Source: Ricordea florida (Eukaryota > Cnidaria > Anthozoa > Corallimorpharia > Ricordeidae). From it: a stretch of DNA of 64,000 bases. A program made the translations under genes and the position numbers. Below, piece by piece: positions 27,415 to 64,000 of this stretch. Every line of letters begins with the position of its first letter. The stretch's first letter is position 1. The notes beneath the pieces are model-generated. The model was not told the DNA's origin. It ran no database searches and saw only the letters and a program-made list of their open reading frames with translations. The stretch is from the NCBI GenBank assembly GCA_949710005.1, contig OX453277.1, positions 436,001 through 500,000 on the forward strand. Reading direction: 5' to 3'.

Positions 27415-30400
27415 TATCTATACTCATTGGTAGAATTTGTATTTGACAGCATTCTTGAGCCAAGCGCCACTTTTTGAGTGGTCAACACGGTGATTTGTGT
27501 TGTGAAACTTTGGACTCTGAGGCAAGATGTTTTTTGCGTGTTTCTTCTTGTCAGAGTTCTGGAGAAAAACTGCTCTGTTATTACTGCAGAACTTTTATTC
27601 GCAAGTTTCAAGGTATCCACCAGTCTTCGTGCGAAAAGAAACCCAGCTGCATTTTCTCAGGTACTTCTCAGTTTTTTTAGTTCTCTTGAGAGTAACAAAT
27701 TATGTTTAGCAGTCGATCCTAACTTAACGCTCAGTCAGTTTGGGTAAACATAAACTAACCATCATTCTGAAATGTGTTGTGGCCAGAGTGGTTTTCAGTT
27801 CACTGCTGTTAGTACATTCGGAGTTTCGTTGGCTTTGCAGTGCTACGATACTTGTGCCATTTTCTCAACCAAACAGAAGTAAAACCTTAATCAATGTTGA
27901 TAACAACAACTTGCACTCGTTTTTCTTGTCTAAGTTGCTACGCGAAGTACATTTGAGTTTATCCAATTTGTTGTTTTTGACCAAGTTTCTCTCCTGTAGT
28001 TTTGGGTTTACGGCTGTCATTTGAAAACCACTCGGCTCTATTTACCAAATCTAAAGCCACTATCTGCAACATCGGACAGTGAAAAGTTTTTGTAGGTTGT
28101 AACTTGGTAATGTTGGGCAGTTTTAATTGAGAAGTTTAAATGATCGCGTAGAATCCGCATTGTCGGAAGGTGACCAAAGGTTCTGACTGATACACAAATA
28201 GTGCTTGTTGAGTTTGGTGTCCTCCAAACCTTCCATACAACCGCTTTTTGGGACTAGCACTTGAATTTAGAGTCTTCCCTTTATAGAGTTACTGTTTTAT
28301 TACCATGGGAACTAGAAACCCTTGTCAATTCTTAGCACTTGAAAGCTCGTGGACTGAAACTTTACAACTGATTTGTTGGGTCGGATTCCAAATGGCTCAG
28401 CATTCTTGGTCCAGAATAGACGTGTTTGGTGTTCGAATTGACACGGGTTTACACGGCATCGATCGCATGCAGTTTTTCTTGTAAATTCAAAACAAAAAAG
28501 TAGCCAGGTTGGAGAAAACCCTGCGTAGAGAAGGTGATATGCTGTACACTGCAAACTATAGAACGCATAGCTAGGAATGTTGAAAACGTCAAGTGATTAT
28601 TCTGCCTTTATAGTTTACAACTTGGCTTTCTAAAGAGTTTGTTATTAAATCTGCAGAGGTACATGTACAAGAAGGTGTGATATTTCGGAAACACGAAACC
28701 CGTGATTTGAGTTAGAATAACCCTAGATAGTTACTCTATAGACTTTAGCGCTGGCAAAACTATATTTTCACCAGCAACCTCCCCAACGGTTTCTTGAAAC
28801 AATTAGATGGGTATTGTTCTTAGATTGTCTGTCTAGAAAAAATCAAGATTGAATGTCTTTTTCCTAATGACGTGGGCAAGTACTCATTACAAGTTGTCAA
28901 TGACTAGAATGAATGAATAGCCTTGATATCCCTGTAGGACCCAAAAATCTTGTCCAACGAACGATTTTGTGTAGCGTGTGTATGAGTTTAGTACACAACA
29001 AGGTTGTACCGAAAATGGTGCCAAGATAGAACATATTGGGATGTTTGTGCCCTCCGATAATGTTGCAGATTTTTAGTCATAGGACCTTTGTTATCGTGGG
29101 ATTTTCGTTCATTGAGACAGCTGAGCAATACTGTGAAGAATTTTTTTAAAAAAAACTTTTTTGGCCGATTCCAACGCCAATAAGATTGTCTTAAGTTTCT
29201 TCCTAAAGAGTTTTCCTTAGCTTCGGGAAGAAGTAAACAGCGAGCTGAACTGTCCTGAGGAACTGCTCGCAGCTTCTTAAAAAGGCAATTAAGCAGTGTT
29301 TTAAATCAGCAATTTTTTCGATTGCATACTGAAGTGTCCCATTTTCTAGAGTTGTCATACAAACTGTCTAAATAAATGTAGTGTAGCGAAAAATCAAAAA
29401 GAGTTAGTATAGTTAAGGATCTGAATAGAAAAAGAGAAAAAAATGTGGTTATAAATTACTTAGTGGTAAATTGTAGCTTTTATGCCGCGTATATGCAAGG
29501 CCACAGTCGTGTTGTGCGTCTATGCATTGTAGTTTCATACTGTAGGTTTATTAGATTATTGTGGTTATTTTAACATATTATTGGGTTATAATGTAGCTAT
29601 ATTATGGTTTTGTTTTGTAAATTGTTGATAGTTTAAACGTGTAAGTAATTATAATATATTAAGATGATATGTATTTGTTGCCGTCTCAGGAGACGATAAA
29701 TCCGTTAATACTATGCAGTCTACACCTGCTGCAACATTCTAAGAGAATTGGTTAGAAATACTATTTATTCTAATATTTTGTGTTTAGAATCCAATCATTC
29801 CATTGTAAGTATTTTAGTGTTGGCAGTTTTCATACTGCCTTTCTCGTGAATGAAGGTCACGTGTCTCTGCTTGACAGTGTGTTGGTGTGATATGGAGAAA
29901 TTGGAGATTGGTTAGTATATGGAGTAAAAGGGTAAACATGATGTGCTGCTTTTTTGGTCATGTGTTTAATTATAGTATTTTAACCTACCGCTGTAGGAAG
30001 TGCAAATAAGAGATCATTTTACAATGTTTTTTTTTAGCAAGTCACTTCCAGTATGTGCGATCGTTTCTCCAGATTGTCGCATAACATGAAGTTGATTTAG
30101 CAGAACACAGTTGAGCATTTTTAGTTGTCATGGTAACAGTAGTTATTATATCTCTCAGTTAGTACGCGCGCTCTGATTGGTCAATTTAGCGGGCTGTACT
30201 TCACTAAACGGCCCGGTAAATTCAAAACTTTGTTTTGGTCGCCAAAATGTATCCAGATATAATAAATATCTTACAAATCTCGTTTTCTCGGTCCGTACTG
30301 TAAGTTACGGATTCTCGTTTTATTTATGGCCATAAATCCGAGCGGAAAAAACTCGGTCCGTAACTTACAGTATGGACCTCGAACTCAGTAAGAGGTATTT

Positions 30401-31084
30401 CATGCCTAAAGGCTGGAAAAAAAAAACAATAAAAAGTAACTAGTAAACTCCTGAAACTTTTGGATATCAGCTCCGAGTGAAACGCGCACATTACAACTTT
30501 TGCTATTTTACATTTCGTGTAAAGGCCGCACCTGTTATTGAGAATTTAGAAGTTAGTAGAATTTCTAATCTTTTTTCTTTGTTGGGCTATCTAGATTGTG
30601 TGACAAACGTTTTTAGAATCTCCAGAATTTGTTGGCAACAAAGTTGCACCCACGTTTAGGGAAAATTATTCTAATAGTTGTGAAAAATTAAAACGTTAGA
30701 TATTTATTTTTGTTGTGTCTATAACAAAGGAGTCATATGATATCAGAGTTTCATAATGTTACTCCTGAAAAATTAGAGGTTATTTAGTTGAACGTTTCAG
30801 AAGTCGTCAGTCCTACTTTGTGTACATAGCTTACGTAGAACTGTTGTAACTTATACTAATAGACAGTGTTGAAAAAAAATAGAACTTTCATTGTGATGGT
30901 ATAAGTGTGTTTATGAGTTGGATTGATTGTTAGCTTCCCCTTTGTATTAAGATCCACGCTAATGTTGTGACACAGCTTCGGGAGTACATATCAACAGGTT
31001 CAAGAGGGGGGGGGGGTGGATGGTATAGTAATGTCTCTTCGCCCCCTGGTGCTAGATTCGTCGACGAAACCGAACACTTCTGCA
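27415..31084 (+). other. Long gene-free tract, probably 3' UTR then intergenic
   Basis: No spliceable ORF is present. AATAAA-type signals occur, for example at 29371-29376, so a 3' UTR near 2 kb is possible. A hairpin lies at 30290-30378. 'tagtacgcgcgctctgattgg' near 30160 resembles the ends of repeats seen at 31970 and 60360. Confidence 0.4.
30290..30378. repeat. Foldback hairpin
   Basis: Arms 'ggtccgtactgtaagttacgga' and 'tccgtaacttacagtatggacc' (one or two mismatches) surround a 45-bp loop containing 'tttatggccataaa', itself palindromic. This is typical of a small foldback transposon. Confidence 0.8.
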
Positions 31085-32065
31085 CACATACTAACCGCAG
31101 AGAACTCTGATGTCAGCGTCTCGTTTATTGAAACCAACAGAAACCAAAGTACTAGAAACTGGGTTAATCAAACAAGTTGCTAAAGTTATTTGAAACACCG
31201 TAAAGTACAAAGGGGAGTGTGACGAAGGGCCAACGCTCGAAACGTCAGCACACCCCCCCCCCTCCCCTTTTTACCTTACGGTGGTATAAATTACTTTATC
31301 AACTTGTTTGATTATCCCAATATCTTGTGTTTCAATTCCCCACCGACGCAGCACCAGTTTCTTTAGAAACTACCCCCACATAAACCAAAGTAGTCGAACT
31401 CACAATTTACCGCTTTTATTTGAACTGGCCGACCAATACAATGACCCCTCACTCTCCACTCCTGCTTATGGTAAATCCCTTAACACCTTTAAGCTGTGTA
31501 CAACCCAAAACATAACTGGCTTCTCCTACAAGCCGATAGAGGAAAGGGGAAATCTCAACGACTCTTCTAATAAGACGATCGTAGTCGTCTTTGTGCAGTC
31601 AACCAATCGCCCTCCAGAACACCTGCATTCCTGCGCGCAGCCATCCTTTACGATGCTTCCCTCGATACATCCTTCAACCAGAAAACAACAAAAATGGGGA
31701 AGATTGGTGTGAACGGTGGGTTGAAAGGGGATAGAGGCTTGAACACGTCTACTTCATTTTACAGCTAAAATATTACTTGTATACACGCGCAGCCTTAGGC
31801 TGGTATTGATACTGGTACGAAAGGTCTCTTGATTTTTGCAGCGATAAACCTGCTTACATGTAGCTCCGCTGTCTGGTTATTAACTGTTTATTTGCCCTGG
31901 TTGCAAATGAATTTATAACGGCAGGGAAGGAGACAAATACATTATAAGACTTTATGAAAAGAACTCGGATACTACGCGCGCACTGATTCGTCGAAAACCT
32001 ATGTGTTATTGTGCTGGTAAACACATAGAAAAGAGACACATTTTTTCGGCGGGCTTGTAAACCAC
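31085..32065 (-). pseudogene. Inverted, internally deleted copy of the tyrosinase gene 3' region
   Basis: On the minus strand this stretch follows the sequence of 60290-62690 in the tyrosinase gene. 'aactctgatg.cag.gtctcg', 'caaacaagttgctaaagtta', the Penelope-like repeat, the last-exon end (SSIGL-stop and the 3' UTR with 'aagctgtgtacaaccc') and exon-5 pieces ('gacgatcgtagtcgtctttg', 'gaacacctgcattcctgcgc', 'ctcgatacatccttcaac') all recur. Then come intron-4 repeat sequences ('tgcagcgataaacctgctta', 'ttgccctggttgcaaatgaa'). About 1.37 kb (exon 5 to exon 6) and about 90 bp inside exon 5 are missing. Introns outside the deletions are retained, so this is a DNA-level copy and not a processed one. 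Confidence 0.8.
31150..31395 (-). repeat. Penelope-like terminal repeat, copy 1
   Basis: It contains the paired blocks 'aatcaaacaagttg(c/a)taaag', 'accttacggtggtataaatt' and 'gcaccagtttctttagaaac', and the central 'gacgaagggccaacgctcga' followed by AACGTCAGCAC. The same blocks occur at 41699-41951 and 62400-62640. This copy is shared with the tyrosinase 3' flank because the whole segment was duplicated. Confidence 0.75.
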
Positions 32066-32097
32066 TTGCCTGCGGCTCTTTGGGGAAATTGCTGTAC

Positions 32098-32640
32098 AAA
32101 ACTCTTTTCGTGTTCTCCCAACAATGTAACACGCTAGTCTACAGCGAGGATCTCAATAGAGACAAATTCCTTTTTGGTCTTCATGGAGAACAGATGCGAA
32201 CTGAGCTACTCAAAACTCATCTCAAGTCAGACAACAGAGAGAAGACCCTAAGCGATGTAGTAGCAGAAGCAAGAGCTATAGGGTCTGCCACGCAAGCAAA
32301 CAAGCTTATAGCTGACTCCTACAAAGCGACATAAGAAGTACACTGGACCGGTCTCAGGCACAGTCAAATGAAGCTCAAAGGAGAACCAGGAACCTGTTTC
32401 TGGTGTGGCAATCGCAAGGGTCCCCACGAATGGAAGATATATCCCGCGAACGGTAGAACCTGTGCTAATTGTGGTGGCAACGATCACTTCGGCCGCGTCT
32501 GTCTGGATGATAGAAGAACTCCACCACAAAACCCCAATACCAACCGGCAGCAGCAACCAAGAGGACGACAAAAAGCAAGGGGCGACAATTGGCGTCGTCA
32601 ACGGGGTGACTCTCGTCCACAATCAAGGGACATGCATACA
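32098..32640 (+). pseudogene. gag C-terminal part with zinc knuckles
   Basis: The frame at 32119-32331 reads LNRDKFLFGLHGEQMRTELL and LSDVVAEARAIGSATQAN, the gag capsid-end pattern. After a stop at about 32332 the frame 32368 onward holds two cysteine motifs: CFWCGNRKGPHEWKIYPANG (modified) and CANCGGNDHFGRVC (a C-x2-C-x4-H-x4-C knuckle). Confidence 0.6.
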
Positions 32641-32702
32641 TTGACCTTTACGACACTGAAGATCAGCACTACAGCAAACCCCTTGATGACCAGTTTGGCC
32701 AT

Positions 32703-33194
32703 ATGTATGCATTAGAAGCTGAAGTACACAACGTAGACTCAGAAACCAGGCCAGAGACTCCGGCGAAGCGTTACTTTACCACCCTTTCGCTCTCCCCAAC
32801 TGGGTCCAACTTCAAGCAAATCAAGTTTCAGATAGACACGGGCGCAACCTTTAACACAATATGTCACTCTACATTGCGGTCTCTCTTACCGTACGCAAGA
32901 ATTAATCGGTCCCCTTATGTCCTATACCCCTATGAAAACTCCAAACCGCTGCATCCAGTAGGCCAAGTCAAACTAGTATGCGAGAAGCCAGAAACCCTGG
33001 TCTTTCAAGTCCTTCCAGACTCGGCCATTGGTTTCCAACCCTCATTACTCTCTGGCAGTGACATCAAGTTACAAGCAGACGAGATCCATTCCCTCTCTAA
33101 GACTGTGCTCTCTGATGTGACGAGTGACCTGCTTCTCGGGTATCGACCCTCTAATCCAAGTGAAGAGGCCACCGCACTTATAACCACAGAATAG
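32703..33194 (+). pseudogene. Retrotransposon aspartic protease
   Basis: KQIKFQIDTGATFNTICHST contains the retropepsin active-site DTGA. 'VKLVCEKPETLVFQVLP' and 'SDIKLQADEI' follow, and the ORF ends at 33194 before RT. It is a retroelement protease and not a host gene. Confidence 0.75.
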
Positions 33195-33299
33195 CCAAAC
33201 AACCCAGGACCCCAACTCACCTGTAACCATCTGCAACAAATACGCGGCATTATCGCTGACCAATGTAAACCGTCTTCCTCTTCCTCAGGTCCAATCAAT

Positions 33300-33755
33300 A
33301 TCACCTCCAACCGTCACCTACCTTCCCCTGGGTACCTGACGAAAGAAGACATCCTAGGTTAGTACGCCAACAGTTTCACAGGAATTGGCAACCTCGGGCC
33401 CCCGGTTTATTTTCATGTCGACAAAAAAGGGCATCCAGTACAGATGCAAGTCCACCGCATACCGATAGCCAAGCGTTACAAAGAGAAAGAAGCTCTAGGC
33501 AGATACGTTGAGAAAGGAATTGTCCCTAAGGTGAACGAGTCAACATGCTGGTGCTCAAACGAGCCTAGTCGTGAGACCCCTAAAAAATTCAGAGTGTGCA
33601 TAGATCCAAGCCAAACAGTAAATAAGGCTATCCAAAGACCAATAAACCAGATGCCCACATTTAATGAGGAACTCCATCGACTCAATACAGCAAAATGCCT
33701 CTCTCTGGTTCATGTCAAGGAACGTATCCTTCACATTCCCCTCGATGAAGAATAA
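33300..33755 (+). pseudogene. Reverse transcriptase N-terminal part
   Basis: GNLGPPVYFHVDKKGHPVQ is followed by RRIPIAKRYKEKEALGRYVE-like sequence, VEKGIVPKVNESTCWCSNE, KFRVCIDPSQTVNKAIQRP and INQMPTFNEELHRLNTAK. This is RT fingers and palm start of a gypsy-type pol. It stops at 33755 before the catalytic YxDD. Confidence 0.7.
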
Positions 33756-33779
33756 TCATGGATGACAACAATGCACACG

Positions 33780-34930
33780 TCATACGATTTATCGTAACCT
33801 ACAGGAAAGACCATACCCTGCACTTGGCTGAAACACTCTCCCGTGAAGCTCTTCCGCAACCCGTAAGAGGTTTTGACGTATTACGCATTGAACCCGAGTA
33901 TGCCGTATTCGTGAGAGACAAGTCAAGATCCCACTCTGACAGCCCTGCTTCAGTTCATCACACAAGGATGGCCACAATACAAAACACAAGTCCGAGAATC
34001 CCTGCGCCCCTAATGGAACGCCAGGGATGAACTGTCGGTTCAGAACGGCATCATCTACAAAGGCACACAAGTTCTGGTACCCCAGTCCATGCAAAAAGAG
34101 ATACTTTCGAAGATACATGCAAACCACGTCTGTGCAGAATGTAACATACGAATGGAACGTGAAGTTCTTTTCTGGCAAGTAATGAGAAAAGCTATTCAGG
34201 ATACTTGTGACGCTTGTAGCAACTGCGCCCAATTTAGGAAGTCAGCGCCCAAGGAACCGAGAAAGTCTCTTCCCATACCCTCAAGGCCATGGGACATAGT
34301 CAGTCAGGACATCAGCAAACTGGAGAAAGAAAACTTCCTAGTAACTGTGTGCCAGGTCGACGAGTTAGTTGACACACTCTCTGCAACTGTAGAAGAGGAG
34401 ACCAAGGCACACTTTGCACGATTTGGCGTCCGTTATTATGCCACACAGACAACAGTACGCAATTTATAGGCCGAGAATACAAGTGATTTGCAGAGGAATA
34501 CGGGTTCAAATATACAACCTCCTCACTCTATCACCCCAAAGGAATCGGTAGAGCCGAAGCGGTCGTCAAAGTGACAGAATCCATGTTGAAGAAAGCTCAA
34601 GATTTCCACAGCGCCACATTTCTGTACAGAAACACGCCACCTCAAGGACACACCTACTCATCTGCTCATCACATGTTCCTTAGGCTCACTAGAACCACCC
34701 AACCATGGTCAGCTCCAAAGTTGTCGCAGAAGAGATTGTCAAGAAAAGACATGCCAGTAAATCATGCTATTACAAGACAGCAGGGGCTGAACAAATAGCG
34801 CTCGATATTGGCAGCTATGCATATGCTTGGCCGCGCCCGAATCAACGGGGCAAACCATGGATCTATAGTGAAGTCATCAGGGAAGATCAATCAAGATCCC
34901 GCGATCCATACCCCAAGAGGCATTACGATC
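33780..34930 (+). pseudogene. RNase H end and integrase (broken)
   Basis: HTLHLAETLSREALPQPV is the RNase H tail ('L..AD.LSRA' pattern). The integrase zinc-binding region follows with HANHVCAECNIRMEREVLFW and CDACSNCAQFRK, then the core with RPWDIVSQDI (first Asp), CHTDNSTQFIGREY (second Asp) and YHPKGIGRAEAVVKV (Glu). The tail reads FLYRNTPPQGHTYSSAHHMF and, in another frame, SYAYAWPRPNQRGKPWIYSE. At least four frame breaks occur. Confidence 0.7.
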
Positions 34931-37097: not shown

Positions 37098-38218
37098 ATG
37101 ACTGAACAACTCTCAGATAATGTAAGTATGTTTGCCTTTGTGAGTTTATTCGAGTCTTAGGACATTATTGCAGGTTATGTTCACGATTGAAGATACGAGT
37201 CATTGACCGCCTTCTGTTGTCCTTAGACCGACAACACACCATCTGTCCCGATCCATTTGGCGGGAAGCGGGAGTGCAACACCAGATCTTCCAAATCTTGA
37301 GAAGATGGTTGGCGAGGCCGTAGCAAAGTCTATGCCAGCTGTCCTAAAAAGCCTCTTCACTTCGCCAAACTTGCCGGGTCAGTCAAGCCCTATGGATTCG
37401 GTGGATAAAACCGCCGAACCGCTTCCGTCGAGTTCTCGAAGCGATCGCTTTTACAGCAGCGAACAGGAGACCAAACTGTCTCAAGACCTGCTGGATTTCA
37501 CCACGAAAGCGTTCTCCCGGCCCTTGACCAAAGAAAAATGGAAAGAGCTGACTTCTACATACCCTCCAATTAAGGATACGGAGGCTCTGCTTGTTTCTCC
37601 CACTATGGAGGCTGGAATGAAAGATGATATTAAGAAACGACACGGATACACGAAAACTAAGGAGCTCTTTGCCTTTGATGATGGGCTTGCTGAACGCCAG
37701 AATGCATTTATAGTAGTAGCAAGACCCATTCTAGCAGCCTTGTCAGCCCTGGACGCTGTAGGGGGGAGGAGGAGGCTGAGGATGTGGACCCCGATTCCAT
37801 AAAGGATTTTCTGGAGGATGCTCTGGTCCTACTTGGCAACGCTAATTTCAGATTAAATGCATGGAGGCAAAAACGGTTTTCCGAGTTTCTTACGGAAGTT
37901 GGCAAGCGTACCCTGAAAGAAAGTATCCCTGCCGATAAGCACCTCTTTCCGGATAAATTTCATGCCAAGATAAGGAGCGAGCATGACCACAGCTCAACCA
38001 ACAGCAAACTCATCAGTGCGCCACCAGCAAAGCGCCAGTTCAAACTGCCCTACAGAAGGGATCAGTCCTTTCGTGCAGATCAGCGCTCCAGTGACAACGA
38101 CAGATTTGGCGGGAAACGGAAATGGGGATTTGGCTCCAATTCTAACCACCAATCCTCCAAGCGTGCTAAAACAGACATCTCCTCCCACCCCCCTGGTATC
38201 AAAGCCGGTAACAGATGA
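37098..38218 (+). pseudogene. DIRS gag-like ORF1 with a spliceosomal intron
   Basis: The start ATG at 37098 opens MTEQLSDN and is followed by a perfect GTAAGT donor at 37122 and a TCCTTAG acceptor ending at 37226. Splicing joins phase 0 to TDNTPSVPIHLAGSGS and the long ORF. The protein continues through TKLSQDLLDFTTKAFSRPLT and AFDDGLAERQNAFIVVARP. A frameshift at the G-run near 37757 breaks it, and the rest follows in another frame (DSIKDFLEDALVLLGNANFR, then a basic Ser/Arg-rich tail to 38218). DIRS ORF1 is taken to be the nucleic-acid-binding capsid-like protein. Confidence 0.75.
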
Positions 38219-38219
38219 C

Positions 38220-40125
38220 TATCAACTGCCAGTTCTAGACACACTCAGCCCACCCAATCACAAATCAGCCGGTCGTTTAAAGTTTTTTGTTCCAAATTGG
38301 AGGAAAATAACCCAGGACTCATGGACATTACAGACAATTCAGGGATACAAGATCCCCTTCTTCAGTCGCCCCAGGCAGTGGCGTACGAGGGTCACCCGTA
38401 CCAAAAGCCATGCAGAGGCCCAACAAATGGACTTGGCAATTGCAAATCTGTTAGCAAAAGGAGCAGTGCGGGAAGTGCAATCACAGGACGACCAGTTCAC
38501 TTCAACCCTGTTTCTGGTACAAAAAGAAAATGGCGAGGCTCGCCCAGTTATCAATCTTCGGGCGCTAAATCGATTCCTAGGAAAGGAGTCCTTCAAAATG
38601 GAAGGACTACAGGTTGTGAGGTCTCTACTACAGAAAGGAGACTTTATGATGAAACTGGACCTGAAGGATGCATATTATGCAATCCCCATTCACTCATCTC
38701 ACAGGAAGTATCTGCGGTTTGTGTATCAGGACAGAGTCTACGAGTTTCAGTGCCTCCCATTTGGCCTCTCCTCTGCTCCCCGAGCCTTCACAAAAACTCT
38801 GAAACCAATGTTAGCAGTGCTCCGTTCACTAGGAATTCGGATTGTAATTTACATCGACGACATGCTACTTCTTCATCAAAAGAGCCAGGTGTTGCAGAGC
38901 CTGTTTGCGCAGCTGGTAGCCTTACTGGAAAATCTGGGCTTCCTGGTCAAGGTGGAGAAATGCTCACTTGCTCCATCCCAGTGTCTTGTCTTTCTAGGGG
39001 CCCAGTTGGACTCGACAACAATGACACTTTCTCTCCCTCAGCTAAAGCTAAACAGTATTTTGGGGGATTGTCGACTCCTCCTAGAACAGAGTTGTGTCCC
39101 GGTAAGGACTCTGGCCACACTGATTGGACGTTTGAGCCATGCCTCTCAAACCGGGATCATGCTTGCCCCTCTTCACTACAGAGCTCTCCAGCGCTTGCAC
39201 TTACAAGCTGTGACTCAGTATGGCCATGGGAGCAGAGTGTCAATCCGCTTGACCACACAAGCCCTGGCCGACCTGGAGTGGTGGGTCTCGGAGAGCCAAC
39301 ACCTGAATGGCTGTCCAATTCAGCTGCCCCCTATAGATGCTACCATCTGGACCGATGCGTCCAAGAAGGGTTGGGGTGCAGCATACCAGGGGAGATCTAC
39401 TGGCGGTCACTGGTGCGTGGAGGAGGCAACAGCACACATCAATGTCCTGGAATTACGAGCAGCAACCTTAGCCTTAAAAGCCCTGTTGCGGGTTCAACAG
39501 CCTCTGCCCAGCCTCTCCCCACTTGCGGTTAGACAACACGACAGCGGTGGCGTACATCAACAAGCGGGGGGGCCCACGCTCCCCTGCCCTGACCACTCAG
39601 GCACTGCAACTTTGGGCAGTGGCCCTGGAAGCAGGAGTGTCCCTGACAGCCCAGCATATTCCAGGGATTCAGAATGGAGTAGCAGACACTGCCTCCAGAC
39701 AGATCGAAAGCAGAACAGAGTGGACTCTGGACAAAGAGATCTTCCAATCAGTTTGTCAGAGGTTCTACACACCAGACGTGGACCTCTTTGCATCCCGCCT
39801 AACTCATCAAGTGCCAAAGTATGTCTCGAGGTACCCGGATCCAGGAGCTGTAGCCGTGGACGCATTTCTCCAGGACTGGAGCAAATGGACCTGTCTAATC
39901 CACCCTTCAGTGGTCCTTCTCCCTCGAATCCTCAGGAAGATAAGAGAAGATCAGGCAACAGCTCTCCTGATTGCACCCAACTGGTCTGGGCAACCATGGT
40001 TCCCAGAACTGCTTCAAATGCTGGTGGATCAACCTCCACTCCTACCCCAGTCTCCATCTCTGCTGTTCCTTCCATTTCAGCCCACCGTGCACCACCCTCT
40101 GTGGCAGTCACTGCATCTAGCAGTT
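38220..40125 (+). pseudogene. DIRS reverse transcriptase and RNase H
   Basis: RT motifs in order are GAVREVQSQDDQFTSTLFLV, ARPVINLRALNRFL, FMMKLDLKDAYYAIPI, FQCLPFGLSSAPRAFTKTL and VIYIDDMLLLHQ (catalytic DD). RNase H then begins with ATIWTDASKKGWGAA and NVLELRAATLALKAL. A frameshift at about 39520 moves the continuation RLDNTTAVAYINKRGG, QHIPGIQNGVADTASR and DVDLFASRLTHQVPKYVS into another frame (39523-40293). Residues needed for RT activity are intact but the frame is not. Confidence 0.9.
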
Positions 40126-41089
40126 TGGCCCTTATCAGGAATCATTACGAAACAACAGGCCTTTCAAAGGAAGTTGTTGACATCCTGCTGGCATCAAGAG
40201 GAGCAGCCACCCAAAAGCGGTATGCAGGCCCGTAGAAGGCATGGGTTCGCTGGTGTTCTCAACGGAGTATCTGTCCCATTTCAGCTCCTGTAGCAGAAGT
40301 CCTTGCTTTTCTGGCATCTCTAGTTACACAGGGGAATTTGGCGTACAGGACAGTAGCCCTCTATAAGTCGGCTATTTCTCAGACTCATGACCCAGTTGGC
40401 TCTACAGAGTTAGGACGCCTGCCTATTGTTTCGCGGTTTATGGAAGGTGTGTTTAAGAGTAAACCTCCCAAGCCAAAATATGCTGGTACATGGAATGTCC
40501 AAATGGCCTTATCATTCTTAGAGTCCCTTGAGCCCTTGGGGGATCTGACATTGAAGCAGCTTTCTTACAAGACAGTTCTATTGTTGGCACTCACATCAGC
40601 AGCACGAGCTCATGAACTATCTTCATTGGACTTGACCTACTCCCTTAAAAAGGAAGGTTCATGGGAATTTACTCTCCCCACACACACTAAGACCTCCAGG
40701 CCTGGTCACCCAGCCCGCAAGATTTTCCTTCCATCCTTCCAGGGAATCTCAAGATTTGTGTTGTGCGCAGCCTTACAGCCTACGTGGAGAAGACGAAGAA
40801 GTTGCGTACCTCCTCAAAGCTATTCGTGTCTTATATTTCCCCTTATAAAGCTATTTCAAGCCAGTCTGTTTCTCGATGGTTATCAAAGGCCTTACGGTTG
40901 GCTGGGATTGAATTAGGATATACCGGTCACTCAACTAGAGGAGCATCTACCTCTGCCGCCGCTGCAGCAGGACTGTCTGTTGAGCTCATCCTGGAAGCAG
41001 CAGATTGGGCTTCCGCACAGACCTTCGAACGCTTTTATCACAGGGAACACTCTAGTGGTTCCTTTTCCAGGGCAGTGTTGAACAGCTGA
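40126..41089 (+). pseudogene. DIRS tyrosine recombinase
   Basis: It begins in the RT frame with SKEVVDILLASRGAATQKRY. An in-frame TAG at 40233, where the family usually has Trp, interrupts GP-stop-KAWVRW. Then come LAYRTVALYKSAISQTHD, LLALTSAARAHELSSLDL (catalytic Arg) and, after a frameshift near 40760-40790, GYTGHSTRGASTSAAAAAG (H-x-x-R) and TFERFYHREHS (nucleophile Tyr). The full R-H-R-Y set is visible. It integrates the circular DIRS DNA in active copies. Confidence 0.85.
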
Positions 41090-41698: not shown

Positions 41699-41951
41699 TA
41701 TTGTGGGGACAGTTTCTAAAGAAACTGGTGCTGCGTCGGTGGGAAATTGAAACACAAGAAATTGGATAAATCAAACGAGTTGATTAAGTAAGTTATACCA
41801 CCGTAAGGTGAATGGGAGGTGCTGACGTTTCGAGCGTTAGCCCTTCGTCGGAGCGAATAACGAAGGGCTAACGCTCGAAACGTCAGCACCTCCCATTCAC
41901 CTTACGGTGGTATAACTTACTTAATCAACTCGTTTGATTTCTCCAATTTCT
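41699..41951. mobile_element. Foldback Penelope-like repeat insertion with 14-bp target duplication
   Basis: It is flanked by 'tatactgaatcaag' at 41685-41698 and 41952-41965. The insert is two inverted copies of the same terminal repeat meeting at 'cggagcgaataacg' near 41860. Arms include 'gaggtgctgacgtttcgagc' and its inverse, 'accttacggtggtataactt' and 'aatcaactcgtttgattt'. The left end also carries 'cagtttctaaagaaactggt', found in the other two copies. Confidence 0.85.
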
Positions 41952-41984
41952 TATACTGAATCAAGGTTTGTCTTGTCCTGGAAG

Positions 41985-57623: not shown

Positions 57624-60600
57624 AGCCTTCTTCATGATTGATGAATCTACTTGTTTTACAGTACACGACGTTTGAAAGAAGCGGTGGTCGCCTGACCACA
57701 GACTACCACACTCTCTCAGTGCTAGTGACAACTCGATATCTTCAATTTTCCTTAGACGACATACACAATGTCGGTTGTCTTAGGGTGGAGGTGTATGGAT
57801 CGCGAAGTAAGCTATTTGTTTTTACCCGTTCACCGCTCGATTCGATGAACATCAGTGGATGCAACAAAACATTTTTAATGACTTTCTATTAGTATGGAAA
57901 TAGTTTATCCATATCTACATAATGATTACAGTAGGACACAAGCAAGTAATAGTGGTTTTACTTTCTTAAGTAACTGGTGCTGCATCGTTGCCTCGTCATT
58001 CTGTCTAATCATACTCGTGATTAACAAATCGAACTTCCGCTGCACGGTCGTCCGATTATGTTATCAGTGGTATGATTACAGACCGAACTGAACTCCCTCA
58101 TTTTCTCTTGACCCACTCAGTCTTGTTACTATTACTTATCAACTCGTTCGATAACTTTACATTATTGTACAAGATAGCGCTGCATAACTATTAATAACGC
58201 AATCGAGAACAAACCAATGAAGCATCACTCTCAATTTGAGCTTTGTTACCTGTTTGATTCGTTGCATTTTGCACAATAATACCAAGATACCATTACGAGT
58301 TAAAAACATCTAAAAGATTCTCGCTCATGGTATTGAGTTTTCGAAACCATAAAATATCAAGCTCTAAATACTACTGATGTTTATCTTACCAGGAACCGAT
58401 TCATGGGCATTATGGTCTATTTGGGGCGCTTGCAGCGTAACCTGTGGCGGAGGAGTGCAATCACGCACCCGCAAATGCATAAGACCACCGGAAAACTCTT
58501 TTTGTGCGGGATCGGACTATCAAACTCAGAGCTGCAATACAAATACATGTCCGAGTAAGTGGTCCTTATTACAGAATACAGCAGATCTTGTTTTAGCACA
58601 GCCCAGCACCGAAGATTTAACTTGCGTCTCGTGATTTACAAGCTCTTCTCGTGTTCTCTCAACATCTAGTGAGGGGTATTTCCAACCTCGTTCCCAGGGC
58701 TTTTCCCTAGAAAAAAAAATGGCGGACGGGAAAAGGCCCTGGCATCGGCTGCTCACGTGTTCATCTTACACCCTGAAATCCTGGGTGTAATAAATTAGCG
58801 CTTTGCATATTCAAAAAAGCTAAAGCAAGATAGCGGAGAAGCGTGAAACTACGCCTCGTGAAATATCTGTGCTGAAACGACTTGGACCGGCTTTAAATCG
58901 TTGTAGCTTTCCTTCGTTTTGTTTGAAGCTACTTCAAATGAAGTGTTTTGAATATTTACTAAAAAGGGCAAGATATTGTTGCCGTTCTACCTACTGGTTT
59001 CGGCAAGTCTCCTATTTCAGCTGCTACCGGATTTCTTGCCTGTCAAGGTGGACAAGAATATAGTGGTAGTTTTTTTATCCTTTAAACTCCATCATAGAGG
59101 ACCAACTTAAAGTGTTGCAGGATATAGGAATCACTGCCGATGTTCCTCAGCTATTCTGAGACGAGCCGGAAACGACCGACAATTTATTTCATTCAGACGA
59201 AAGCAAGGCTGACGGATCGTTAAAAAATCCCAGTGCGAACCTACTGAAAGGAGATATCCAGATTATGTTTTCAGGCCTACACGACTCCCGCTGTTCGCAA
59301 GTGTAGTTTCTCTGCCTTTAGAGTTTGGATCTTGAGTATGTCCTTGAGCGATTTTTCTCTTTTGTACGATATGATGGGTGGCTCTTTGTATATCTCACTT
59401 AGTAAAGGCTGATCCTGTATTAGACACATTTGCTCAAAAGGAAGAATTCTATTGCGCGTTATTTTATTTTGTTGAAGAGCCGACGTTCTCTCTTCGAATT
59501 TCACTTCTGAGAGGACTTTATTTACCAGATTATCTGGATAACCTCTCAAGTAAAGGCGTGATCTGAATGCTCCAATATTCGGTTCAAAAGCATTTTTTGA
59601 AGAGTTAGTTCGAAGCCTTTGATTTTTTACCTTTACCGACCCCTGGTGGGTGGCAGGAAGCGAAATGCGTGTACTAAAATGTTTCTGTCGGCTTGTAGTG
59701 ATCATGAGCAGGAGCCCAGAGTTCGCACGTCATGGATAGATCTTTGTCTAAATCCATCGCACAACATTTGACACGCTGTAGTTATCTCATCTGTGATAGC
59801 CAATTTCAAAGCTGCAAGCAATCTCGGGCAAGGTTTCTTTATAATATCTGCCCCAATAACTGCTGGTTGTGAGTTCACTTTACCAAAAACACGAATCAAT
59901 CGACGACAGCTCTCGAATTCATCGCCGCAAAGACGGCAAATGCGTGAATGTCGAATATGAATTTTTTTTGGAGTTAACTGCTCCATAAAACATGCGAAAC
60001 ACTAGATTTGCGGTCATATGTGGAGATATTCTCGCAACCTTCTCAAAAATATTTTATGACAAGTAGAATTTGAGAAAATTGCAGCAACCAATGAAAATGC
60101 AGAATTAACCGCAGGAATTCATACATTAGTTTTTCAATGAATATTTAAGATGAACACGTGACCAGCCGATGCCAGGGCCTTTTCCCGTTCGACATTTTTC
60201 TTTCTAGGGAAAAGCCCTGGGAACGAGGTTGGGGTATTTCGCCGGTAAACCCATAGAAACTGCGGTTTATTGCTTTCATAAACTAACTTAAAATAAAAAC
60301 AGAAAATGTTTCTCTATTCTATGGGTTTACCGGCACAATAACCCATAGGGTTTCGACGAATCAGCGTGCGCGTAGTATCTGAGTTATTTTATAATGTATT
60401 TGTCTCCTTCAATGCCGTTATAAGTTCATTTGCAAACAGGGCAAATAAACAGTCAATAACCTGACAGCGAAGCTAAGCAGGTTTATCGCTGCAAAAATCT
60501 AAAGAGACCTTTAGCACCAGAATCAATACCAGCCAAAGGCTGCGGGTGTATACAAGTAATATTTTGGCGGTAAAATGAAGTAGACGTGTTCAAGCCTCCC

Positions 60601-62290
60601 TCCCCACCCACTCAATTTTATTGTCTCACTTGGACCCACCGTCTACAACAATTCGTGCATGTCTGGTTGTTTTCTTGTTGAAGGATGTATCGAGGGGAGC
60701 ATCGTAAACGATGGCTGCGCGCAGGAATGCAGGTGTTCTGGAGGGCGACTGGTTGACTGCACACGCGTAAGACACGAATTCACTTCCATGAAATTCGAGG
60801 ACAGAGAGACATACACAAAAATTGTACGCGAGGCTTCCAGTAACCCACCGTACAAAGACGACTACGATCGTCTTATTACAATCCACGAAACTCAGTTCCG
60901 TGCAGGAATACATCAACAAGACCAGTTCCTTCCATGGCACCGTTGGTTTATTTTGGAGTATGAAAATCTGCTGCGCCGTGTTGACTGCAGGTTTACCGTG
61001 GCATACTGGGATTGGAGTGTTGTAAGTGGGACCCCCTGGCGTGAATCTGCGTTAGATCTTTGGCTTGGCCATGACGCTGGGTTTGGCGGAAATGGTGTAG
61101 GACCAACACGGTGCGTGAACACTGGTCCATTCAGAGAGGACGTCTGGAACGTTGTACCGTCTGCTGGAGGCAGCTGCCTAACGCGTAACTTCAATGGTAA
61201 CCCACCTGACGCCGTTGCAGTGGCCGAGGTGCTTAGAACAAATGCCTCGAGCTTCAACAAGTTTGAGACGAATCTACGTTTCAATCTGCATGATACTGTT
61301 CACTGTCAAATTGGAGGTGTGATGTGCACAGAAGATGCAGCGACTTCCCCTGAATTCTTTCTCCATCACACCTATATAGACAAGATATGGCATGACTGGC
61401 AGGCCACGAGCCGAGAGCACCTGACTGCACACTTCAACACAGTGTCCGGCAATATGGCTGGCACAAATAACCTTCACCCCAGACTCTATATTGACAACTC
61501 CAACTTACCAGGCAACTTGAGGGTTCGGTACCAAGGAATAACCGCTCGACGATTCGGAGAAGTTGAGTCACGCCTAAGCAGTGAGTATCTCGACAGACTG
61601 TTAAGCGGCTTGGAGGCAACATTGCAATTTTTCTCTACCGTTTTATTTACATGTAGGACTCTACCGCATAGTACATAAATGGCATCACAGTCCGGAATTG
61701 TCACACTGCAAGGTTTGATAAACAGATAAGATCATTAGAACCTCAAGGAAAAATGGATTGAATAACAAACCCGACTGTAGCTTAAGAATTCTTCCGATCG
61801 ATCAACCAAGAGTTCACAATTTTTATCAGTATCTTTCAGAATAATTTTTATTGTCATATTACAGTGTCATAATTATTTGAATCATGCCAGCAGTGAAAGC
61901 AAGTATTTAATTTTATTCATAAGTTTATTTGTTTACCAGTAAACCAGCTCAATTGTTACACGTTGATAAGGATGTAATTATTGTTTATAGATTATTGTTA
62001 TCATCATCATCATTATTACTACTAATATTATGATAATTCATTTCATTTTGTTGTCTTTCCCTCAAGGTATGACACTGAGTGAACTGCGAGCAATACCGCG
62101 AGCCTCATTTTCGGGGCTTGGCACCAGCGCCATCGAGCTCTTTAATATTTCAGATGAGGAACTGAAAGAGGCGAGGAGACTGGAACAGAAGCTGCGCGAG
62201 TTTACTGGCCACGCCCAGCCACTGGTGTCATTTGAACCATACTCAGTCGAAGAGTCGTTGGGATTTCCCCTTTCCTCTATTGGCTTGTAG
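54707..62290 (+). CDS. Secreted discoidin-TSP1-tyrosinase (copper oxidase)
   Basis: Predicted extracellular type-3 copper oxidase (phenol or catechol oxidation). Six exons join in phase to 601 residues: 54707-54761, 55097-55419, 57662-57806, 58393-58554, 60684-61580 and 62067-62290. A signal peptide (MLPKVISLFVFIGLARG) is followed by an F5/8 type C (discoidin) domain at about 20-174 (NSETIPDSRMVASSQFSD, GAWCPGATERGEYLEVDLG). Next is a thrombospondin type 1 repeat at about 178-228 (WALWSIWGACSVTCGGGVQS), a Cys-rich link, and the tyrosinase domain. CuA ligands are His296, His305 and His314 with exact 9-residue spacing (HETQFRAGIHQQDQFLPWHR). CuB ligands are His431 and His435 (HDTVH) and His456 or 457 (FLHH). 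All six copper positions are present, so it should be active. Likely roles are pigmentation, wound melanisation or matrix cross-linking (inference). AATAAA lies 77 bp after the stop. Confidence 0.92.
55058..55132 (+). other. Tandemly duplicated 3' splice site at tyrosinase exon 2
   Basis: About 35-40 bp spanning the acceptor and start of exon 2 ('ta(t/c)aggtagctgtttct(t/c)aaatgctat(c/t)ggtgttg') occurs twice in tandem. Use of the downstream acceptor (55096) keeps the frame (GSCFSNAIGVANSE). Use of the upstream copy (55061) reads into 'agg tag', a stop. Confidence 0.85.
56145..57640 (+). mobile_element. 5'-truncated LINE in tyrosinase intron 2
   Basis: RT motifs are LLVLLDLSAAFDTVDHRILL, NWIESYLSNRTQRIYIDG, GVLQGSCLGSLLFSLY and, after a frameshift near 56500, YADDMQLY. 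The C-terminal domain in 56787-57362 reads SLVHAFITSRIDYCNSLYGL, VQNAAARLVTGTP and HWLPISYLIQFKILLLTYKC. The 3' end is an AT-rich tail ending in (TTA)n at 57572-57622. The motif set resembles CR1/jockey-type LINEs. Stops and a frameshift make it inactive. Same orientation as the gene. Confidence 0.85.
58915..59060 (+). pseudogene. RecQ-like helicase P-loop fragment
   Basis: QMKCFEYLLK, then after a one-base shift GQDIVAVLPTGFGKSPISAA, gives the Walker A of RecQ-type helicases (LPTGFGKS) with the usual preceding 'Q..CL..LL.GQDV'. Only about 40 residues are preserved. Confidence 0.6.
59277..59705 (-). pseudogene. Penelope-like/DIRS-type RT C-terminal fragment
   Basis: FRSRLYLRGYPDNLVNKVLS, KITRNRILPF, PLLSEIYKEPPIISYKREKS and LKDILKIQTLKA follow the region after the RT palm in Penelope-like elements ('L..RGYP...', 'PPI.SY+.. 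KSLKD.LV'). No RT catalytic motif is present. Confidence 0.55.
59702..59986 (-). pseudogene. Cys-containing ORF within the TIR element
   Basis: A 94-residue ORF begins MEQLTPKKIHIRHSRICRLC and continues GDEFESCRRLIRVFGK. The C-x2-C...C pattern could be a zinc-binding start of a transposase or host domain. Not recognised. Confidence 0.3.
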
Positions 62291-62366
62291 GAGTAGCTAA
62301 TTATGTTCTGGGTTGTACACAGCTTAAAGTTGTTAAGAGATTTACCATCAGCAGGAGGCCAGTTCA

Positions 62367-62372
62367 AATAAA
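62367..62372 (+). promoter_or_regulatory. Polyadenylation signal of the tyrosinase gene
   Basis: AATAAA lies 77 bp after the TAG of the last exon. Confidence 0.65.
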
Positions 62373-62399
62373 AGCGGGTAAATTGTGAGTTCGACTATA

Positions 62400-62640
62400 C
62401 TTTGCAATTGGTTTCTGTCGGGGTAGTTTCTAAAGAAACTGGTGCTGCGTCGGTGGGGAATTGAAACACAAGATATTGGGATAATCAAACAAGTTGATAA
62501 AGTAATTTATACCACCGTCAGGTAAAAAGGGGGGTGCTCACGTTTCGAACGTTAGCCCTTCGTCACACACCTTTTGACCTTACGGTGGTATAAATAACTT
62601 TAGCAACTTGTTTGATTATCCCACTTTCTTGTACTTTGTT
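62400..62640. repeat. Penelope-like terminal repeat, copy 3
   Basis: Contains 'gtttctaaagaaactggtgc', 'aatcaaacaagttgataaag', 'ataccaccgtcaggtaaaaa', the inverse of 'gacgaagggctaacgttcga', and a second inverted arm ('ttacggtggtataaataact'). It sits just past the tyrosinase polyadenylation signal and is shared with the inverted copy at 31.1-31.4 kb. Confidence 0.75.
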
Positions 62641-62698
62641 TTCTGTTGTTTTCAATAAACGAGACACTGCCATCAGAGTTCTTCTTCTCTGCATTTAA

Positions 62699-63445
62699 GG
62701 GGACCGTCTAGTCAGATTTTTTGTTAATTTTCGGTCATCCAACCATTTTTTATATTTTCACTTAAAACTATAGTTTAACCCATCTACTTTAAGTTTTCGA
62801 AGTCTTTTTCACATAAATTGCCCTGTGAAAGCTGGTAAAAGCGATTTTCGTGATGTAGTCTGCCAATGGCGATCGGTTGCCATGGAAACGGTTAAGGAAT
62901 AATTTAAATTTGTGCCAACTTTAAGAGCATTTTTCTCAAATTTGCCCTTTTCCGGAAGTAGGCATCTGCCCCTAACTATTTTTTCTTAAGTATATGACCA
63001 ATTGCTGTGAAATTTGGCACAGACTGCCTTTAGGATGTAAACGAAATTGGATTAAGTTAAATACTTGAGGAGATATCTGTTCTACACCCATATTTGGAAG
63101 TATTTGGTTGCCATGGGAACACTAATAGCCTTACCCCGAAACCGCTCCATAGGATTATAGTTCAATCCATGTTAGTTATGGATAGAAAGTGAAATTCATT
63201 TTCAATGAATTCTGCACATAACAAGTATGTGGGGCAGACGGCAACCCTCAGCTGATAAGATCAAATTCAGGAGTTAATCATTAACTATCTTTTAACTATT
63301 TCATCTCAAATTACACCTTCCTGTGTAGGTCATCCTGAAGGGATGCTGTGGTGAAAATTTCATTGTTTTCTATAAAATCGTTACAGAGCTCTGTTATTTT
63401 AAAGATGCTTAGAACATTTCTCTGAAATTTGACTAGACTGCCCCC
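62699..63445. mobile_element. TIR element with TTAA-like target, 747 bp
   Basis: Left end GGGGACCGTCTAGTCAGATT and right end the inverse of GGGGGCAGTCTAGTCAAATT. The flanks are TTAA (62695-62698) and TCAA (63446-63449). The TTAA target points to Kolobok or piggyBac families if the right flank has mutated. Internal 'ttgccatggaaac' and 'ttgccatgggaac' repeat. No transposase. Confidence 0.65.
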
Positions 63446-63537
63446 TCAATTGGGCCTCATGACTCTTCTGCGCCTTCACCCGTGCAAGATACCAACACAA
63501 AACCATCTAATGATCATGTTTCATTTTGGCAAACGCG

Positions 63538-63783
63538 ATGGATTTCGACCTGTCTTTCCCCACTGTAGATGAAAATGACTACGTAAAAGTCCCGCTAGCT
63601 TCTACAATGGAGGCGATATCTATCTGTGCCTGTCTTTTTACACCACTAGCCCAACTCAATAAACTGCTGACCGCGTTAAGAATTACATCCCCTGAAGTTA
63701 CCCAAGCTCTCGTCTTACCTTACAATTGCGGGCTCCTTCACGTTCTTCATGATTCTATCGTAACGATCCGACTGTTCTACTAG
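63538..63783 (+). pseudogene. Possible pentraxin-like fragment
   Basis: MDFDLSFPTVDENDYVKVPL then MEAISICACLFT resembles the first strands of a pentraxin domain ('L.FP....DYV.....M..LT.C.W'). After residue 36 the similarity ends and no splice donor is evident at that point. No acceptor precedes it. It may be a truncated exon or a chance ORF. Confidence 0.3.
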
Positions 63784-63799
63784 GGAAAGGAAACTAAAA

Positions 63800-64000
63800 T
63801 GTAGTGTGACGCTGTTCGTTTTACTGTACAGTTTAGTTCTAACACATTTATCTGTGGATCAAACCATACAGTGTGACCATTGTTTGGTAAGCTACTGAAC
63901 AGCACTATACTCTGGTGATGTTTGTTATATCATGCAGCATGAACTTTTTTCCAACCGTGAACCAAACCATGCATTGTGATCTTGAAAGCTACCGAACAAT
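63800..64000 (+). repeat. Satellite-like repeat at right edge
   Basis: Two units of about 108 bp of the monomer also found at 45448-45775 ('tgttcgttttactgtacagt', 'ctgtggatcaaaccatacag', 'gtaagctactgaacagcac'). It continues past the window. Confidence 0.75.

Follow-up and report, generated by a model that had tools for sequence, protein, structure and literature searches.

Why does a piece of a tyrosinase gene lie inverted about 30 kb from the gene itself, and does it do anything there? We addressed this question in a 64,000-nucleotide window, positions 436001-500000 of contig C6, and searched for related sequences in the whole 538-Mb assembly of 48 contigs. The initial annotation had described the locus at 31085-32065 as an inverted, colinear copy of the tyrosinase 3' half. 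BLAST and base-by-base alignment bore this out, with the edges of homology slightly inside the proposed extent, at about 31091 and about 32044.

The intact gene of the window, here called L, encodes an F5/8C domain (E 7.5e-11), a TSP1 domain (Pfam TSP_1, E 2e-13) and a tyrosinase domain (E 9e-32). The PDB relatives of the tyrosinase domain are mainly hemocyanins, tyrosinases and catechol oxidases. The following features of L are used below:

58393..58554, plus strand: TSP1 exon with a phase-1 donor (Pfam TSP_1 E 2e-13; in-frame join)
60684..61580, plus strand: exon 5, cysteine-rich start and tyrosinase domain (Pfam Tyrosinase E 9e-32; frame, phase)
62067..62290, plus strand: exon 6, the last coding exon, with the stop
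62405..62632, plus strand: interspersed palindromic repeat in the 3'UTR, common to the fragment
62654..62659, plus strand: poly(A) signal AATAAA, with its fragment counterpart at 31129

We placed the end of the phase-correct acceptor at 60683 because this choice joins the TSP1 exon, exon 5 and exon 6 in a single reading frame closed by one terminal stop. The patchy stretch before exon 5, where 52 of 63 bases are identical to the fragment, is intron. Intron 4 of L also holds a 1.55-kb insertion (58682-60230) that the paralogs B and C described below do not have; about 10 bp (GGGGTATTTC) are repeated at both its ends, and its 87-bp inverted ends are 95% identical. By its look this insertion may be Mutator-like.

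The minus strand from 32044 to 31091 is colinear with 60303-62692 and runs through intron 4, exons 5 and 6, the 3'UTR, the interspersed repeat and the poly(A) signal. The fragment and its surroundings consist of the following parts:

31672..32044, minus strand: 3' part of tyrosinase intron 4 with the retained AG acceptor (AG ends at 31672; BLAST, 264/288 identical)
31594..31595, minus strand: junction 1, where 91 nt (60761-60851) are missing, with ACA microhomology
31567..31568, minus strand: junction 2, where 1370 nt (60879-62248, including intron 5) are missing, without microhomology
31526..31671, minus strand: fused exon 5/exon 6 remnant of 48 codons, starting at the acceptor and closed by the native stop
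31091..31525, minus strand: 3'UTR with the palindromic repeat (31151-31328) and AATAAA at 31129
32142..33786, plus strand: 5'-truncated LTR-type retroelement adjoining the fragment (Integrase_H2C2 in ORF 34014-34469)

A BLAST search of 30000-33500 against the window linked the two loci by three blocks, each inverted and all in a single consistent order: 31101-31567 with 62682-62249 (395/476 identical, E 6e-147), 31592-32044 with 60763-60303 (395/479, E 6e-141) and, between these two, a 30-base block, 31565-31594 with 60881-60852 (29/30, E 2e-7). Over 60303-62700, fragment and gene were identical at 824 of the 897 bases aligned outside gaps. By part, identity was 264/288 in intron 4 (60303-60592), 77/80 and 29/30 in the retained exon 5, 39/41 in exon 6, 101/108 and 50/54 in the 3'UTR before and after the repeat, and 208/225 in the repeat (58/60 plus 150/165). 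By tblastn, the exon-5 part matched the tyrosinase gene at 3e-16 and the short exon-6 part at 0.008, in the same frame. The self-alignment that the initial annotation had proposed as a check thus showed that the exon similarity is real and that the match exceeds the repeat parts.

We then compared the substitution levels of these parts. Non-coding sequence outside the repeat (415/450 identical) and the repeat itself (208/225) have diverged alike (Fisher P 1.0), as a single duplication event would give. The intact tyrosinase gene is itself constrained, and the retained coding parts were slightly more alike than the non-coding ones (145/151 versus 415/450), a difference that is not significant (P 0.135). 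The substitution level is not fully even, because an exact run of 99 nt (gene 62420-62518, fragment 31278-31376), mostly within the repeat, is longer than expected (P 0.012, or 0.002 if gaps count as breaks); homogenisation is a possible cause. Difference counts between fragment and L vary with the aligner, from 73/897 in the pairwise alignment to 88/868 in a five-row alignment. We also observed a small hairpin at 60319-60348 of the gene (CTATGGGTT..AACCCATAG) whose counterpart at 31999-32028 of the fragment, minus strand (CTATGTGTT..AACACATAG), carries a paired change in both arms.

The palindromic repeat, which the initial annotation had called Penelope-like and which may resemble such elements, lies inside the 3'UTR of L because it follows the stop codon and precedes the AATAAA at 62654, and not beyond the gene, where the initial annotation had put it. 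It occupies the same place in gene and fragment, with flanking identity of 101/108 and 50/54 on the two sides. Independent insertions at the two loci were rejected on the strength of this shared position and of the common sequence on both sides. A third copy in the window, at 41702-41952, is 81-82% identical to either locus in local alignment and 84-88% identical in the best BLAST blocks, and two copies measure about 230-280 nt. At least 78 of the 91 genome matches to the fragment lay in the repeat alone and matches fell on at least 15 of the 48 contigs, counts that are lower bounds, with several matches per place and 40 of 2831 candidates scored. Available PLEs are said, in the accessible part of a review, to carry minimal hammerhead motifs (PMC6155905). 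The window gave no Rfam match at gathering scores, and permissive Rfam scans returned no hammerhead family among the below-gathering matches, where minimal hammerheads may escape the models. The minus-strand ORF 59277-59729, which lies in another insertion, had no Pfam match at E 0.01.

Which gene did the fragment come from? Three further tyrosinase genes lie on C6 between 3.99 and 4.10 Mb, A at 3.99 Mb, B at 4.075 Mb and C at 4.095 Mb. They are open over the whole of a 364-residue exon query, are 93% identical to it, and are mutually at least 99.9% identical over at least 11.7 kb. In the genome search (40 of 2831 candidates scored), the exon and intron parts of the fragment matched only L, A, B and C, and the parts missing from the fragment are present in these four genes, all open over the exon query. 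In the five-row alignment, the fragment differed from L at 88/868 positions (10.1%) and from A, B and C at 96/897, 94/897 and 95/897 (10.5-10.7%), while L differed from A, B and C at 17/868, 15/868 and 16/868 (1.7-2.0%). For the 3'UTR part alone, the differences were 39/393 between fragment and L, 40/422 between fragment and B, and 2/393 between L and B. Jukes-Cantor distances in intron 4 were 0.092 (fragment-L), 0.116 (fragment-B) and 0.032 (L-B), so that the fragment is older than the L-B split there too. Counting only sites free of gaps in all five rows, L and B differ at 15. At 8 of these the fragment has the base of L, at 5 that of B, and at 2 it matches neither; 13 of the 15 fall in the intron 4/exon 5 segment, where a split of 8 (L) to 3 (B) is not decisive (P 0.23). 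A 29-nt block is present in the fragment and in B, the paralog displayed, and absent from L, and several indels set the fragment apart from L and B together.

From the pairwise differences, the site agreements, the 29-nt block and the indels we conclude that in the compared segments the fragment branches outside the group of intact genes (L, A, B and C) and, as read from the sequence, split off earlier. The initial annotation had treated it as a duplicate of this particular gene, an assignment that is not supported for the gene in its present form, as A, B and C are about equally close and B has the 29-nt block of the fragment. A copy of L as it stands was likewise rejected, given the 8/5/2 split of the L/B sites and the block common to fragment and B. 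The fragment may still have been cut from an older L because the intact genes appear to have undergone conversion. Measured in 250-base steps, the divergence of L from B is about 2-9% as far as about 61480 and 0-0.8% from there to 64000; this low-divergence tract (61483-64000 versus C6:4074934-4078722) starts with a drop inside exon 5, and a tract ending there is apparently the product of gene conversion or recombination. For the exon 6/UTR half of the fragment the comparison falls within the conversion-like tract, for the intron 4/exon 5 half outside it, and the apparent conversion blurs the dating of the fragment. In the gene part at 54.8-55.6 kb, the divergence of L from B reaches 8.3% (64/769) and so comes close to that of the fragment. 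The fragment may thus derive from an ancestral gene at this locus, shortly before that gene was copied to 4 Mb.

The 4-Mb region has a structure of its own. It contains an inverted repeat of 19.6 kb (4064234-4083801 / 4107539-4087972) whose arms are 99.96% identical, flank a 4.2-kb spacer and carry one tyrosinase gene each, and a third near-identical copy lies at about 3.98-4.01 Mb. A recent palindrome, conversion or an assembly effect are possible explanations. Further tyrosinase-like sequences, with 38-61% identity to the L exon-5 query, occur in a cluster at C14:3377296-3438505 and at C2:17011463-17023225 and C9:22807257-22815443.

Overall, it is very probable that 31091-32044 (minus strand) is an unprocessed, truncated pseudogene fragment from a DNA-level copy, ordinary and without known function. 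We favour DNA-level duplication because an intron is retained and the fragment has neither an A-tract nor a convincing target-site duplication. As in unprocessed pseudogenes, homology runs through intron (264/288 in intron 4) and flanking non-coding DNA (3'UTR and repeat), protein function is lost, with 975 coding nucleotides missing, and parent-type genes exist, four of them open over the 364-residue exon query. The marks of processed pseudogenes, namely removed introns and a poly(A) tract with a target-site duplication, were not found at the fragment. The view of the initial annotation that DNA was duplicated after the repeat had inserted, and was not retroposed, is thus supported by the position of the repeat, the flanking identity and the retained intron. 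A genomic piece that began within intron 4 and ended some 23-33 nt downstream of the poly(A) signal would have been copied and inverted when the repeat was already in the 3'UTR. The copy would have been placed beside the truncated LTR-type retroelement and would have lost 91 and 1370 nt, at once or later. Its source was presumably a gene near this locus from which the present genes descend, and the fragment may have arisen by end joining or template switching.

A compatible sub-case, possible but doubtful, is that the fragment is the remnant of a whole-gene inverted duplication, of which deletions and TE insertions removed all but the 3' end. The family often shows full-length duplication here (L, A, B, C and the C14 cluster), and B and C sit on the arms of the 19.6-kb inverted repeat. 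However, no clear upstream exons turned up near the fragment in a tblastn search whose queries were the first F5/8C part, the tyrosinase exon and exon 6 and did not include the TSP1 exon and the second F5/8C part. Besides the fragment and the gene, its best values were 0.11 in the exon region of the gene and at least 1.3 elsewhere, and an all-by-all BLAST (E 1e-10) likewise revealed none of the upstream exons.

The edges of the fragment bear on a different origin, which we judge quite unlikely: an unspliced tyrosinase pre-mRNA would have been cleaved and given its poly(A) tail soon after AATAAA, and a retroelement would have reverse transcribed it and inserted a 5'-truncated copy. The 3' edge (about 62692 in the gene) indeed falls some 23-33 nt past AATAAA, the 5' truncation falls in intron 4, and reverse-transcriptase and other retroelement ORFs lie within the window. 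Yet intron 4 is retained, the 3' edge has no poly(A) tract, and the best direct repeat between the ends is 6 nt (31060-31110 versus 32031-32085), with no convincing target-site duplication; we considered retroposition unlikely on these grounds. The homology ends within a few bases of the start of an element with 28-nt inverted ends (62692-63452), also in paralog B, and does not resume between gene and fragment past this element. An edge at the start of this element, 23-33 nt past AATAAA, could count against a DNA-level copy, being compatible with one made from RNA.

Beyond the 5' edge at 32044 there are 97 bp of spacer, weakly matched (77-80%) at two other places, and then the retroelement, which by its look may be Gypsy-like. 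Its cut point at 32142 is the start of 6 of the 20 matches listed; two other genomic copies share some 400 bases upstream of the equivalent point, and this upstream sequence was not found in the window. The left flank, from about 30419 to 31090, had no scored match (40 of 2247 candidates scored). Comparison of the flanks of the two loci gave, beyond the 5' edge, at best a 25-base hit of 88% identity (E 0.008), which is inverted and distant and was put down to chance, and nothing better than E 1.1 beyond the 3' edge. Between fragment and gene, the plus-strand ORF 37974-40235 encodes a reverse transcriptase (RVT_1, E 1.7e-21).

The fragment has lost most of what it would need to encode an enzyme. 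The losses, first estimated at about 1.37 kb and 90 bp, are exactly 1370 nt and 91 nt. The ACA microhomology (3 nt) already reported for the smaller one was recovered and leaves four equivalent breakpoints; the 1370-nt deletion has a single possible breakpoint and no microhomology. The coding sequence lost amounts to 975 nt (3 x 325) and includes almost all of the tyrosinase domain, of whose Pfam-matched stretch (ORF residues 92-274) about 7 initial codons are left, out of frame. Among the scored genome matches (91 matches; 40 of 2831 candidates scored), no second locus spanned both deletions, only the fragment itself. The fragment keeps the acceptor and the poly(A) signal, and between them a frame of 48 codons that stays open as far as the native stop; these features could be held against our explanation as the hint of a maintained terminal exon. 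Random deletion pairs of similar size preserve such an open frame in 28% of trials (5643/20000), so the open frame is not evidence of use or selection, and we discarded selection on the 48-codon frame on the basis of this control.

We wondered whether the fragment could act on its relatives. Its transcript had been predicted to be antisense; read in its own (minus) direction the fragment is sense to tyrosinase, and only a plus-strand transcript would be antisense. It is very unlikely that plus-strand RNA through the fragment lowers tyrosinase mRNA expression via duplexes or endo-siRNAs. The fragment does share 115 exact 21-mers with the exons of L (exon ends approximate), in seven stretches of which two lie in the repeat, so that exact complementarity of at least 21 nt to the mRNA exists. 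Pseudogene-derived antisense and small RNAs have precedents in the accessible portions of two papers (PMC2984423, PMC2708354), and candidate cis-NAT endo-siRNAs in non-bilaterian animals are reported in that of a third (PMC6211395). On the other side stand the sense orientation of the fragment's own direction and a divergence of about 8-10% with many indels, which leaves few perfect sites. Unique endo-siRNAs of Nematostella show no bias to coding genes, according to the same portion of the third paper (PMC6211395).

It is highly improbable that the fragment serves as a minimal 3'-terminal exon spliced to an upstream minus-strand transcript, or is read antisense, and so acts as a catalytic-domain-free decoy or regulator of the four tyrosinase genes. 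As a candidate terminal exon it offers an AG acceptor, a 48-codon frame that has a cysteine-rich start and ends at the native stop, and a poly(A) signal of its own. A functional element finds no support in our results. An assembly artefact or haplotype duplicate is extremely improbable because the flanks differ, the divergence is about 8-10% and the deletions are private, although the near-identical copies at other places on C6 point to regions of difficult assembly. That a mobile element captured and spread the fragment is unsupported, since no other scored match spans the deletions (40 of 2831 candidates scored) and no scored match to the left flank extends past about 30418 (40 of 2247 candidates scored).

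The fragment is mainly useful as a relative time marker: the repeat was in the tyrosinase 3'UTR before the fragment split off. Its position outside L, A, B and C in the compared segments makes it possible to tell which differences among the intact genes are likely derived; the 29-nt loss, for example, likely belongs to window gene L.

The arrangement invites comparison with known systems. In the available text on rice, inverted pseudogene pairs and gene-pseudogene pairs give rise to small RNAs (PMC2708354). Those pairs are, like this one, inverted and paralogous, and one of them is 83% identical; here the partners lie 30 kb apart and would give separate potential transcripts. Trans-NATs from pseudogenes, as portrayed in an excerpt of PMC2984423, are likewise complementary to a gene elsewhere, and here plus-strand transcription would be needed. 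Duplicated genes are common in coral genomes, according to the accessible text of PMC10236652, which is relevant if the animal is, as we infer, a coral. The fragment looks like an ordinary decayed DNA duplicate, a known kind of pseudogene. It shares with unprocessed (duplicated) pseudogene fragments the kept intron and UTR, the deletions, the lost catalytic coding sequence and the nearby parent-type gene, and differs from them in nothing essential; this one is very short, is inverted, and lies outside the split of the intact copies.
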